Source: Gemmatimonas phototrophica
GTDB taxonomy: Bacteria > Gemmatimonadota > Gemmatimonadetes > Gemmatimonadales > Gemmatimonadaceae
NCBI RefSeq assembly: GCF_000695095.2
Contig: NZ_CP011454.1
Location: forward strand, 2,108,001 to 2,172,000
Reading direction: 5' to 3'
DNA: 64,000 nt
The translations under genes and the position numbers were made by a program. Numbering within the stretch: position 1 is the first letter of the stretch; every line of letters begins with the position of its first letter. Shown piece after piece: positions 12,604 through 32,143 of the stretch. The notes under the pieces were generated by a model. That model did not search any database and was not told the DNA's origin. It saw only the letters and a program-made list of their open reading frames with translations.

Positions 12604-13278
12604 ATGGCGCAGGCGACCCGCAACGCAGGTACTTCGGCCGGCTCTTCGGCCTCCCTGAGCGATGACCCGATCGAGTCCGTCTCGACGTGGTTCCAGCTGA
12701 ACAGCAAGCCGATCCTTATGGCGGTTGGCGGCGTAGCTGTCGCAGCTGCCGCGGTGTTGGTGTACCGCAGCTCCACGGCATCCACCCGTGAAAAGGCATC
12801 GGTCGCGTTGTATGCGGCCCAGACCCCGTACGTGCAGGGGAAGCTGCCGGAAGCCCAGAAGGAGTTGGAGAAGGTTGCCACCCGGTATGGAAGCACGGCA
12901 TCCGGGCAGCAGGCGGCGGTGTTGCTGGCGCAGGTGTTCTTCGAGCAGGGGAAGCCTGACGATGGCATCAAGGCGCTCGAAAAGGCGCTCGGCAGCGCGT
13001 CGGCCGACTTCAAGGGGAGTCTCGAATCGCTGATCGCGGCGGGCTACGAGCAGAAGAAAGATCTTGGCAAGGCGGCCGAACATTATGCGAAGGCTGCCGC
13101 GGCCTCGACCTTCAAGTCGGACAAGTACGGGTATCAGGCGAGCCAGGCTCGCAGCCTGATGTCGGCTGGCAAGGACGCCGACGCTCGGAAGATCTGGGAA
13201 GAATTGGCCAAACTGGATGGCGAGCCAATCCAGCAGGAAGCCAATGTTCGCCTGGGTGAACTGGCCGCCAAGCGGTAA
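12604..13278 (+). CDS. Membrane-anchored TPR-like protein (YfgM-type)
   Basis: A 224-residue protein with a cytoplasmic N-terminal tail of about 38 residues, a single transmembrane helix (ILMAVGGVAVAAAAVLVY) and an extracytoplasmic helical domain with tetratricopeptide-like repeats (EAQKELEKVATRYG, GIKALEKALG, AEHYAKAAAASTF, ARKIWEELAKLDG). This layout matches YfgM-like proteins, which assist periplasmic protein quality control, but the similarity is in architecture only and the role here is unproven. It has its own strong terminator and is the last + strand gene before the strand switch. Confidence 0.75.
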   Translation: MAQATRNAGTSAGSSASLSDDPIESVSTWFQLNSKPILMAVGGVAVAAAAVLVYRSSTASTREKASVALYAAQTPYVQGKLPEAQKELEKVATRYGSTASGQQAAVLLAQVFFEQGKPDDGIKALEKALGSASADFKGSLESLIAAGYEQKKDLGKAAEHYAKAAAASTFKSDKYGYQASQARSLMSAGKDADARKIWEELAKLDGEPIQQEANVRLGELAAKR

Positions 13279-13298
13279 GCAGACGCGAGAACATTGTA

Positions 13299-13346
13299 AA
13301 CGTCGGGCGGACAACCTTCGTGGTGTCCGCCCGACGTTTTTTTGTT
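13299..13346 (+). terminator. Strong intrinsic terminator
   Basis: A perfect 13-bp GC-rich stem (13301-13313 with 13324-13336, extendable by two A-T pairs) with a 10-base loop is followed by TTTTTTTGTTTTT. It closes the + strand TPR gene transcript just before the terminus island. Confidence 0.95.
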
Positions 13347-13488: not shown

Positions 13489-13516
13489 TATGCGTATAAT
13501 ACATGTTATGTAAACT
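13489..13516 (+). other. dif: Putative dif site (XerC/XerD recombination site)
   Basis: The 28 bp read as an 11-bp XerC-type arm (TATGCGTATAA), a 6-bp centre (TACATG) and an 11-bp XerD-type arm (TTATGTAAACT). The right arm is identical to the right arm of Bacillus subtilis dif as I remember it and matches 9 of 11 bases of E. coli dif. The left arm matches 8 of 11 E. coli bases. The arms show the expected inner inverted repeat (ATAA...TTAT). Position supports it: genes on both sides point toward it, and the + strand goes from G-rich on the left to C-rich on the right, as at a replication terminus. A XerC/D-type recombinase is encoded 17 kb away. Confidence 0.85.
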
Positions 13517-13787
13517 AGTGTTGGTGGATAACTGTGGGAAAAACTTCCGTGGAAATCATCCGGAAATGTGGGAATGTATCGTAAGTGTATGCTCAACAAT
13601 ACTTTGGGTTTACCGGATTCGTCTGTACCGTCGGTGGCAGCTCACGAATGGCAATACTGTCCACCTGTCCACATGGATTTGCGATCATTTTGGCTGGTTG
13701 CCAACACGTGGTCCCTTGGCCCCCCATGGGCACAGTCCGTAACGCATTCGGAAGCTGTTGGTGTGTCGCCATTTCCATCGTCAGACG

Positions 13788-13879: not shown

Positions 13880-14740
13880 CTAGATGTCCTCAATCACACC
13901 GCGATATACCACCCGCCCCTCTCCTCGTAACGTGGGCCGGTAGTCCGTTCGCATGCCGGTCTTTGTCGGTGCAGCGGCTGGCAACCGGACCTCCAGGGTT
14001 CTCCCGGAGCTGGTGAGGATTCCCACGACCTCCTCCTTGGCGAGACCCCACTCCGCCAACATGACCGCCGTGGCGACCGCGCCCGTCCCGCATGCCAGCG
14101 TCTCGCCTTCAACCCCCCGTTCAAAGGTGCGGTATCGCCATTGGCCGTTCGGCAGTGGAGACACCCAATTGACGTTGGTGCCGCTGGGGCCCGTTGCGGG
14201 ATGCCAGCGGAGTCCGGGACCCCGAACGGCCACATCAATGTTTTCGGCGTTTTCCGTCAGGATGACCAGATGTGGGATGCCGGCGACGACAAAGCCAACC
14301 CGTGTTTCGCCGTCTGCCATTGGGACAGCAATGTCGTTGGTCATCTCGTGGACTGGCTGGAAATCAATCTCCGGCAACCCACGCACTCGGCTTGTGATAA
14401 GGCCTGCTCCCGTCGTCAGGCGCATCCCATCAGCGCTCGCCAGGCCAATCGCCGCGGACAGTGCCGTTGAGCAAAGCGTGGCGTTTCCGCACAAATCTGC
14501 GGGAGTTCCATCGCTGTTGAAATAGTGAATCCGAACATCCGCGTCGCCCGACAGGGGCTCTAGGGCGACTACGCCGTCAGCGCCTATCCCATTATACCTA
14601 TTGCAGATACGTTGTATTGCCTCAGGTGATGTGACAAGTGAGATCGGGACGGTACGACCGTCGAAAAAGACAAAGTCATTGCCAGAGCCCGTCATCTTGG
14701 CAAAGGCGATGCCCCGGAGCGCGTCGGCGAGTGACGACAT
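13880..14740 (-). CDS. dapF: Diaminopimelate epimerase
   Basis: Interconverts LL- and meso-diaminopimelate for lysine and peptidoglycan synthesis. The 286-residue protein begins with the family pattern FAKMTGSGNDFVFFDG. The two catalytic cysteines are in DLCGNATLCS and LACGTGAVATAV. I place the start at 14740, where TGATG couples it to the preceding glycosyltransferase stop. A longer frame reaches 14767 but lacks support. It is the last gene of the - strand run before the terminus, with its own terminator. No other lysine gene is nearby. Confidence 0.95.
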   Translation of the reverse strand: MSSLADALRGIAFAKMTGSGNDFVFFDGRTVPISLVTSPEAIQRICNRYNGIGADGVVALEPLSGDADVRIHYFNSDGTPADLCGNATLCSTALSAAIGLASADGMRLTTGAGLITSRVRGLPEIDFQPVHEMTNDIAVPMADGETRVGFVVAGIPHLVILTENAENIDVAVRGPGLRWHPATGPSGTNVNWVSPLPNGQWRYRTFERGVEGETLACGTGAVATAVMLAEWGLAKEEVVGILTSSGRTLEVRLPAAAPTKTGMRTDYRPTLRGEGRVVYRGVIEDI

Positions 14741-15504
14741 CAATACTGCCCTGAGATGCCCCACCACCTCAGCCGCCAGACCATCCAGATGGCTTCCCGA
14801 ACGATGCGCTTGGACATCTTGGATTCACCTTCCGTGCGATCGTGAAACACAATGGGAATCTCCGCAATGCGGAACCCACGCTTCCAAGCCCGAAAGCTCA
14901 TCTCGATCTGAAAGGCATAGCCGTTGGATCGCACTTTATCGAGCGGAATCGCTTCGAGCACGTGTCGGCGAAAGCACTTGAAGCCGCCGGTCGCATCACC
15001 GAGGTGAAGTCCTGTAATGGCACGAGCATAGATGTTTGCACCGTACGACAGCATCAAACGGGTCATCGGCCAGTTCACGACGGTAACCTTGCCATCGCGG
15101 TAGCGAGAGCCGAGAACCAGATCCGCATCCTTCACGGCGGCAAGAAACTCCGGAAGGTGGGCGGGATCATGCGAGAAGTCGGCGTCCATCTCAAAGACGT
15201 AGGCATAGTCCCGTTCCAGCGCCCACTTGAAGCCAGCCAGATACGCGCGCCCCAGCCCTTCTTTCCCCGCCCGGTGCAGCACATGCACCCGGGAGTCGGC
15301 GGCGGCGAGCTGGTCCGCCAGCCGTCCAGTTCCGTCAGGTGAATTGTCGTCGACCACCAACACATCGAGCCGTGGATCCTGTTGGAGGATCAGCGGCACG
15401 ATGCGCGTGACGTTTTCGCTTTCGTTATAGGTAGGCACGATCACAATGCCCCGCTCTCCTGCAGCGAGGGCACCACGTGCCGGGGTCTTCATACGTGTCA
15501 TCAT
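14740..15504 (-). CDS. Polyprenol-monophosphate mannose synthase-like GT2 glycosyltransferase
   Basis: Likely moves a sugar, probably mannose, from a nucleotide donor to polyprenyl phosphate on the inner face of the membrane. It is a compact GT2 enzyme with VIVPTYNESENV, the donor-binding LVVDDNSPDGTG, the DXD-type FEMDADFSHDP, and LGSRYRDG. It has no C-terminal transmembrane pair, as in soluble Dpm1-type enzymes. The start is uncertain: ATG at 15504 or 15501 (Met-Met) or 15492, none with a good ribosome-binding site. It overlaps the dapF start at its 3' end and belongs to the surface-glycan module on this strand. Confidence 0.85.
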   Translation of the reverse strand: MMTRMKTPARGALAAGERGIVIVPTYNESENVTRIVPLILQQDPRLDVLVVDDNSPDGTGRLADQLAAADSRVHVLHRAGKEGLGRAYLAGFKWALERDYAYVFEMDADFSHDPAHLPEFLAAVKDADLVLGSRYRDGKVTVVNWPMTRLMLSYGANIYARAITGLHLGDATGGFKCFRRHVLEAIPLDKVRSNGYAFQIEMSFRAWKRGFRIAEIPIVFHDRTEGESKMSKRIVREAIWMVWRLRWWGISGQY

Positions 15505-30596: not shown

Positions 30597-31532
30597 TCAG
30601 GAACGCGGGTGGAATTGCTTGTGTACGCTACGAAGATACTCACGGTCCACGTGCGTGTAGATCTGGGTGGTGGCAATATCGGCGTGGCCGAGCATCTCCT
30701 GCACGGCACGCAGGTCCGCGCCCCCTTCCAGAAGATGCGTGGCGAACGAATGGCGGAGTGTGTGCGGTGACACGGGCTTTTCGATTGCCGCCTGATCCAC
30801 GTATTTCCGCAGGATTTTCCAGGCGCCCATTCTGGTCAGGGGTTTCCCCTGCCCATTCAGAAACAGGATGCCCTTGCCGTGCCCTCGTTCCAGTACGGGA
30901 CGCAGCTCGCGGACATACACGGCCACCGCACCAATCGCCGAACGCCCTATGGGAACGAGTCGCTCCTTGCTCCCCTTGCCGAACACGCGGACGAGGCCGT
31001 CTTCCAGCAGCACGTCTTTCAGCGCGAGACCAATCCACTCGGAAACCCGGAGCCCTGCCCCATAGGCCAGCTCCAGCATCGCACGATCACGAAAGGCCAG
31101 CCGTTCATCGAGCTGTGGCGCGGCCAGGAGGCGCGTCACTTCCTCGACCGACAGGACCTCCGGCAATGTCCGCCAGCGCTGCGGTGAATCCAATCGTTCG
31201 GTGGGGTCGCTGTGAACCAACCCTTCTGCCAGCAGAATGCGGAACCACGTCCTTAGCGCGGAGATATTGCGCCGGATGGAGCTGCCCGCCAACCCGAGAT
31301 CCTTGAGGTGATAGACAAACTCCCGCAAGATCGCCGGTGTAATGGCGGCCGCGCTCGCAATGCCGTGCTCCCGAAGGAACGCGGCACAGCGCAGGACGTC
31401 TCGACGGTACGCGTCAATCGTTCGCGGTGAGGCCCCGTCTTCCAAAGCGAGGGCATCTTCGAACGCCTGGAGATGGAAGCCACGTCGCAGCGTCCGCTCC
31501 TCTTCACTCATGGGCATCGGGGACATAGTCAT
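30597..31532 (-). CDS. xerD: Tyrosine recombinase XerC/XerD
   Basis: Site-specific recombinase that resolves chromosome dimers at dif. The 311 residues comprise an N-terminal SAM-like DNA-binding domain ([22 protein letters not shown]) and a catalytic domain. The catalytic residues are the arginine in [10 protein letters not shown], the lysine in [29 protein letters not shown] (H and R), the histidine in [14 protein letters not shown], and the tyrosine in that same segment. Closeness to XerD over XerC is a judgement from the motifs. The start at 31532 overlaps the dedA stop (ATGA). Met codons a few residues later are possible. Confidence 0.93.
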
Positions 31533-32143
31533 GAACGGCGATGCCCGCGCTGCCGACGCCAAAACACAAACGCGACCGCTACGACCACGATGCCGAGGGC
31601 AACCAGGCCAAGGGTGCGTTGCTGCCGGGTAATGGCGGCCAGCAACTGGTCGGCGCTGGCGCCCGCCCGGAAGGCCAGCAGGCACACGACTCCGTACCAG
31701 ACACCCGACGCCAGGGACATCGCAATCGCGGATCGTCCGGCGCCAATGCCAAGCGCGCCCGCCATTGGCGGCACGAGCGCCCGCACCCCGGGGAGAAAGC
31801 GGCTGATCACGACCGCTACCATCCCCTGCCTCTGGAACTGCCGGGAGAATTCACCGGCCGCCTGCTCAGTGACAATTGAGGGGAAACGGCGGATGAGCCA
31901 CGGCAAACCAAAGCGATGCCCAAGGGCGTACATGAGCATCGCGCCACCAACGTTTCCCACCATGGTGGCAGCCCACACGCCGAGCATGGTACCGTTGCCG
32001 CGTGCGGCCACAAATGCGCCGAGCGCAATCACGGTATCGGCAGGCAACGGTGGGAAAACGTTCTCGGCGAACGCTGCCACCAAAATGGCGCCGTATAGCA
32101 GCGGGTCTGGCAAGCCGGCGAGCCACGCGAGCAGATCGTTCAT
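31529..32143 (-). CDS. DedA-family membrane protein
   Basis: A 204-residue inner-membrane protein of the DedA/SNARE-associated family, some members of which flip undecaprenyl phosphate or phospholipids. It shows the family pattern AFAENVFPPLPADTVIALG, the GNVGGAMLMYALG segment, and FLPGVRALVPPMAGALG with its key arginine. Several transmembrane helices are evident, and the C-terminus is strongly basic. It follows ispF by 37 bp and overlaps xerD. A role in recycling the lipid carrier would fit the many glycan genes but is inference. Confidence 0.9.
   Translation of the reverse strand: MNDLLAWLAGLPDPLLYGAILVAAFAENVFPPLPADTVIALGAFVAARGNGTMLGVWAATMVGNVGGAMLMYALGHRFGLPWLIRRFPSIVTEQAAGEFSRQFQRQGMVAVVISRFLPGVRALVPPMAGALGIGAGRSAIAMSLASGVWYGVVCLLAFRAGASADQLLAAITRQQRTLGLVALGIVVVAVAFVFWRRQRGHRRS

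Follow-up and report, generated by a model that had tools for sequence, protein, structure and literature searches.

The replication terminus of Gemmatimonas phototrophica carries a 28-bp dif site that is accompanied, on its XerD side, by a short and highly conserved tandem element, and such a pair of DnaA-box-like sequences beside dif is previously undescribed. The 28 bases are almost certainly the chromosome's sole dif, where joined daughter chromosomes get separated, and we see very little room for doubt that 13489-13516 is a functional chromosomal dif at which recombination would take place. We are also highly confident that the dif-linked element is a real one. The sequence, its uniqueness, the terminus position, the set of Xer and FtsK genes, the conservation and the fixed spacing were observed directly. 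Positions are those of the window, that is, the whole stretch of 64,000 nucleotides that was analysed, unless they are given for the chromosome or for other contigs; the features are collected in Table 1.

Table 1. Features of the dif locus and its surroundings in the window
Feature	Position	Strand	Remarks
TPR-repeat protein	12604..13278	+	conserved left neighbour
inverted repeat, 16-nt perfect arms, T-run on + strand	13298..13339		likely terminator of TPR gene
dif, XerC-side arm TATGCGTATAA	13489..13499	+	8/11 to E. coli; positions 3-6 and 8-11 invariant in 27 Gemmatimonas loci
dif, central region TACATG, 6 bp	13500..13505	+	other genera: GATATA, TATGTA, GATATG etc.
dif, XerD-side arm TTATGTAAACT	13506..13516	+	11/11 to B. 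subtilis dif; near-invariant in genus
spacer, 7 bp	13517..13523		first six bases weakly conserved; seventh (13523) G in 85%
accessory repeat 1 GTGGATAA (minus strand TTATCCAC)	13524..13531	-	invariant in 27/27 genus loci
accessory repeat 2 TGTGGGAAA (minus strand TTTCCCACA, DnaA-box-like)	13533..13541	-	offset 17 in 27/27 genus loci
dapF (diaminopimelate epimerase)	13880..14767	-	convergent right neighbour; TIGR00652 above cut-off
xerD	30597..31685	-	TIGR02225 353.9 bits, cut-off 329.6

A single dif site at the replication terminus

The experimentally confirmed dif seeds quoted by Kono et al. 2011 (PMC3025954) served as references, and against them the 28 bases agree with B. subtilis dif at 21/28 positions (11/11 in the XerD arm) and with E. 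coli dif at 20/28 (8/11 in the XerC arm). A preliminary description of this DNA had proposed a probable dif with two arms around a 6-bp centre, a right arm identical to the B. subtilis XerD arm and a left arm matching E. coli at 8 of 11 bases, and was correct on each of these points (TATGCGTATAA TACATG TTATGTAAACT); it had put the overall match to B. subtilis dif at about 22 of 28 bases. Within the 1.56 Mb searched (33% of the chromosome), the 28-mer was the top match to both references, the runners-up reaching 18/28 for the E. coli and 19/28 for the B. subtilis reference, and shuffled windows returned no dif match. Over the whole chromosome, a single contig of 4,716,552 bp, it occurs once at up to 3 mismatches, with no match for the reversed control, and the expectation that no second copy would be found thus holds genome-wide.

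Cumulative G minus C, at 500-bp resolution, peaks at chromosome position 2,121,500, in the same bin as dif (2,121,489-2,121,516). The skew was computed from 33% of the chromosome, with a contiguous 464 kb around dif (1.928 to 2.392 Mb), and interpolated elsewhere; the interpolated whole-chromosome curve has its maximum in the 2-kb bin ending at 2,122,000 and its minimum beside dnaA, which starts near base 150 of the contig, and dif lies 237 kb off the point opposite dnaA. After random removal of blocks (30% of those sampled), the maximum stayed in the same bin in 238/300 trials and moved to a bin 8 kb away in 62. The change from G-rich to C-rich that had been placed at about 13.5 kb is therefore found there, and the flip in gene orientation read at the same point is confirmed by the genes that could be identified: to the left, on the plus strand, uvrC, a PALP enzyme, a TPR protein, a radical SAM/DUF512 protein, EngA, surE, apt and a second TPR protein, and to the right, on the minus strand, dapF, GT2, GT4, rpoN, an ABC ATPase, xerD and a NuoL-like gene. 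An unprejudiced octamer count returned GGGCAGGG, a form of the E. coli FtsK-orienting octamer GGGNAGGG, as the most strand-polar octamer in both replichores. As expected of an FtsK-orienting sequence, GGGNAGGG is polar towards dif, with strand counts of 89/22 and 94/35 in the two replichores, and its polarity switches between 2,115,250 and 2,133,750 (69/78 sites concordant).

Tomasch et al. 2024 (PMC11237797) described a high-strand-bias domain of 600 kb at the terminus of Gemmatimonadota, in which gene direction switches where the GC skew changes sign. They deduced the terminus from gene direction and skew, and in the main text of that paper we found dif mentioned only once, in a general remark. 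The window appears to fall within this domain and, compared with that work, the dif site itself is now located, at the plus to minus switch, by which the Gemmatimonas terminus is fixed to the base.

Conservation of the locus and the Xer machinery

Among 61 genomes searched, dif was present in 26/29 other genomes of the genus, with no match for the reversed control, in one copy each except for two copies in one fragmented assembly. Almost all sufficiently long loci of these congeners show the TPR gene to the left and, to the right, dapF followed by the GT2 gene, so that the 28-mer is kept in relatives that retain the flanking genes, as had been anticipated, and linkage of dif with dapF extends into families f2 and f3 (f1 to f11 are anonymous family ranks from the search tool, and many of the relatives are metagenome assemblies). 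Two dif copies per assembly were seen in G303 (C12:79302 and C41:693) and in G011 (C159:6911 and C260:52), which probably reflect mixed strains, because the flank is similar at each copy.

The recombinase that the preliminary description had noticed 17 kb away is XerD (TIGR02225 above cut-off). Its true start, judged from where the alignment of relatives begins, is probably about 64 codons inside the GTG at which the open reading frame of the window begins, near 31493; a XerD with a conserved N-terminal DNA-binding extension was considered and discarded, the first 64 residues being unaligned in most relatives outside the genus. The xerD gene keeps its linkage to the site: in more than 30 genomes of the order it is located on the XerD side of dif, about 16-29 kb past that arm. 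The gene for XerC is found at about 3.03 Mb (TIGR02224 just over cut-off), and FtsK is encoded with its gamma domain. An integron integrase was also matched (L113 1351-2418, G000:C1:4315523-4316068; TIGR02249, 379.9 bits, cut-off 265), and there may be a chromosomal integron nearby.

The site thus has the 11+6+11 layout, the single copy, the terminus position, the XerC, XerD and FtsK-gamma genes and the conserved locus of a XerCD dif. Mobile elements that use Xer do exploit dif-like sites, and the 28-mer could in principle be the attachment scar of one of them, or a plasmid dif module; the probability of this is vanishingly small, and it is already refuted by position and conservation, as the 28-mer is present in single copy with core genes in synteny on both sides, is kept across genus and order, and sits exactly at the skew maximum. 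Three observations had been named beforehand as able to overturn the proposal of a dif at the terminus, namely a skew extreme elsewhere, several copies of the motif, or its loss in relatives that keep the flanking genes; each was looked for, and none was found. Taken alone the site is ordinary, dif having been predicted computationally in hundreds of genomes, one of them from the Gemmatimonadetes (Kono et al. 2011, PMC3025954).

A conserved tandem element on the XerD side of dif

What the preliminary description overlooked is a second conserved element, GTGGATAAcTGTGGGAAA at 13524-13541, which starts 7 bp after the XerD arm in all 27 genus loci and is there conserved as highly as dif (27/27 Gemmatimonas loci). 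In the column profile of these loci 16 of the 18 columns of the element (GTGGATAACTGTGGGAAA) are invariant, and the other two reach 81% and 96%. The flanks outside dif and the element carry little information in the same profile: conservation is low upstream of dif, and no conserved block lies within 60 bp on the XerC side. GTGGATAA and GTGGGAAA, direct repeats with a spacing of 10 bp, make up the element; their consensus is TTNYCCAC(A) on the strand reading towards dif. On the minus strand repeat 1 is DnaA-box-like, its ninth base, at 13523, giving C and not A. The element 18-mer is unique in the genome, where nothing else comes nearer than 3 mismatches. No hairpin was found in the region of the element, the only inverted repeat there being that at 13298-13339, and an Rfam search of the intergenic gap gave no credible match, all scores being far below gathering.

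Outside the genus, loci were selected by dif alone and their downstream flanks were then scanned for the repeat. In families f1 and f2, GTGGRNAA was confined, within the 120 bp downstream of dif, to offsets 6, 7, 16 and 17, with 25/28 loci positive in f1, 19/20 in f2 and 27/27 in the genus, and on the XerC side most loci of this survey had no repeats within 120 bp. With the relaxed form GKGGRNAA and extra genomes, fixed offsets were seen in 44/44 loci of f2 and in 16/19 of f4 and f6 together. Overall, 72/75 loci have a repeat at the fixed offsets, against a mean of 0.1/75 for shuffled flanks. In the other families repeat 1 stands at offset 6/7 in part of the loci, and TGTGGANAA at offset 16/17. 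The two f3 loci show near-matches only, in the usual place of the element, which is absent at the dif of f5 (0/8), f8 (0/2) and f7 with f11 (0/16), in total 0/26. As f5, f7, f8 and f11 have dif without it, the element is dispensable for dif function in general.

Other phyla were probed with the exact form GTGGATAA and through E. coli only, whose dif locus has no such repeat. Dif followed by GTGGATAA was found in 63/395 genomes of the phylum, with none for the control, and in a scan of 84,980 species genomes the matches to this combination, at this spacing, are mostly Gemmatimonadota. The named matches clearly outside the phylum are scattered and lack tandem structure, and their small number is compatible with chance, and two composite-pattern matches in viral contigs were taken as chance too.

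In 9/19 loci of f4 and f6 an inverted third copy, TTNYCC(A/C)C, was observed near +33 from dif, which in some of them forms a perfect palindrome of 8-11 bp with repeat 2; G294:C168:14816-14883 and G275:C116:34502-34569 are examples of dif loci from these families. A third conserved box in f2 (TTAATCACACC) was set aside as the 3' end of dapF, since the match to that gene stops there.

A plain E. coli-type dif, beside a conserved block that belongs to the convergent dapF or TPR units as a 3' end, terminator or promoter, would account for the element in another way, since the gap is convergent and syntenic and its sequence could have been inherited along with the genes. The distances speak against it: dapF can be as close as about 60 bp to the start of dif or over 2 kb away from it, while the repeats stay 6/7 and 16/17 bp from dif, and in L230, L254 and L264, with dapF 0.8-2.2 kb away, the position of the repeat is unchanged. 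The element therefore goes with dif rather than with the gene beside it. The remainder of the gap is also unconserved, and the block has neither a hairpin nor a credible Rfam match. We consider this explanation strongly disfavoured and very improbable.

DnaA as a putative ligand of the repeats

Repeat 2 takes the form TGTGGANAA in 41 f1 and f2 loci from genera other than Gemmatimonas; the ninth base (the first T), on which the selection did not bear, is found in 40/41. On the other strand TGTGGANAA reads TTNTCCACA, the DnaA-box consensus, 16-17 bp from dif. This 9-mer is matched by repeat 2 in most f1 and f2 genera; Gemmatimonas has TTTCCCACA and TTATCCAC(C) instead, and with repeat 1 lacking the final A neither of its repeats is a perfect box. 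Published DnaA boxes are TTATCCACA or TT(G/C)TCCACA, with a variable third position, and TTGTCCACA is a DnaA box in M. tuberculosis and S. coelicolor (PMC4285127). Across the order, dnaA promoters (30 loci) mostly have TTATCCACA, TTTTCCACA or TTGTCCACA, and one carries TTTCCCACA, the sequence of Gemmatimonas repeat 2. In the dnaA-dnaN gap of three Gemmatimonas genomes we found the pair CGCTCCACA-G-TCCCCCACA or a close variant, with a 10-bp period like that of the element, these boxes being degenerate and keeping only YCCACA. The motif is thus present at the dnaA promoter and, in degenerate form, between dnaA and dnaN in the same organisms. A genome-wide scan found no strict clusters of TTNTCCACA at the origin, and the 9-mer is not much enriched (67 sites vs 49 for reversed controls); at only one place in the genome, G000:C1:1819309-1819422, do three TTNTCCACA sites come together within about 110 bp. 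In the open papers searched we found no DnaA box described as keeping a fixed distance from dif.

From the resemblance of the repeats, we give about even chances to DnaA being the putative ligand of the element. Other proteins sharing a DnaA-box-like motif could also bind it. One protein of 579 residues (G000:C1:1881586-1883166; L116 1486-3225) was examined and rejected as such a ligand: it matches the AAA+ ATPase domain of DnaA twice, and a DNA-binding domain of the DnaA type was not detected in it. An accessory protein other than DnaA, a Gemmatimonadota factor giving directionality to XerCD as ArgR/PepA and ArcA/PepA do at cer and psi, would fit the fixed and helically phased spacing to the XerD arm and the confinement of the element to one set of families, and the inverted copy of f4 and f6 would suit a dimeric protein. 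The motif, however, coincides with a DnaA box down to its degenerate third position, and no candidate gene was identified, so that we think such a factor rather unlikely.

A proposed mechanism for the control of XerCD

In E. coli, FtsK follows polar octamers along the DNA until it reaches dif, where its gamma domain activates XerD, and strands are exchanged by XerD first and then by XerC. By analogy, FtsK guided by GGGNAGGG-type octamers would bring the Gemmatimonas terminus to the septum and activate XerD through its gamma domain, and XerC and XerD would recombine the two dif copies, resolving chromosome dimers. The two direct repeats, one helical turn apart and 6-7 bp from the arm, would act as an accessory site on the XerD side, with DnaA as first choice, or a protein of like specificity, binding them on one face of the DNA beside XerD. 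The bound protein, one to two helical turns from the XerD arm, might contact XerD or bend the DNA, and could permit or delay XerCD synapsis, which would tie dimer resolution to the state of replication; with DnaA as the ligand, the amount of the initiator or its nucleotide state would influence how dimers are resolved.

Because XerD, the target of FtsK, sits on the side of the element, the repeats might instead be sequences that load or orient FtsK next to dif. We regard this as highly improbable: GTGGRNAA is little polar (96/85 and 134/114, vs 89/22 and 94/35 for GGGNAGGG), and to the right of dif the repeats are on the strand opposite to that expected of a G-rich leading-strand motif. As an FtsK motif, GTGGRNAA was accordingly rejected for its lack of strand polarity.

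The explanation that we favour, with moderate confidence, is a functional dif combined with a XerD-side accessory site, most likely bound by DnaA, that would control XerCD synapsis; the recombination, the ligand and the regulatory effect are what we infer. A more specific proposal, that in much of the class Gemmatimonadetes (f1, f2, f4 and f6) DnaA binds the phased box pair and gates XerCD recombination, is put forward tentatively, and we would rather bet against it than for it.

Comparison with known systems

Gemmatimonas dif resembles those of E. coli and B. subtilis in its 28 bp with 11+6+11 layout, single copy, location at the GC-skew maximum, and presence of XerC, XerD and FtsK-gamma, and differs from that of E. 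coli in having a tandem element at a fixed distance on the XerD side. The plasmid sites cer and psi carry about 150-180 bp of accessory DNA on the XerC side, on which ArgR/PepA or ArcA/PepA act. Both arrangements place accessory DNA beside a Xer core site, but in Gemmatimonas it takes less than 30 bp, is on the XerD side and accompanies a 6-bp centre, and is therefore not of the cer/psi type. In proteobacteria, Carnoy and Roten (PMC2731167) took a 6-bp centre as a sign that accessory elements are not needed, and the genomes with the element offer a test case for that argument.

The nearest precedent for a chromosomal dif with conserved flanking sequence is that of the Thermococcales, whose flanks are of unknown function; Cortez et al. 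2010 (PMC2958812) suggested a protein partner yet to be identified. There, AT-rich inverted-repeat flanks of about 23 bp surround a dif served by XerA alone (PMC2958812), whereas the repeats of Gemmatimonas are direct, lie on one side only, and go with XerCD plus FtsK. The element resembles the DnaA boxes of oriC, the dnaA promoter and datA/DARS in its tandem sites and, through repeat 2 of most f1 and f2 genera, in the TTNTCCACA motif, and the 10-bp spacing recurs in the dnaA-dnaN gap of Gemmatimonas; it differs from them in its place at dif, with rigid spacing to a recombinase site. Chromosomal dif is usually regarded as a bare 28-bp site under the control of FtsK only, and a dif with a conserved and rigidly spaced DnaA-box-like neighbour in about a hundred surveyed genomes suggests a second layer of control, which would sit in a phylum with an unusual terminus domain. 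Should gating by DnaA prove true, a single protein would sense the replication cycle at its start as well as at its end.
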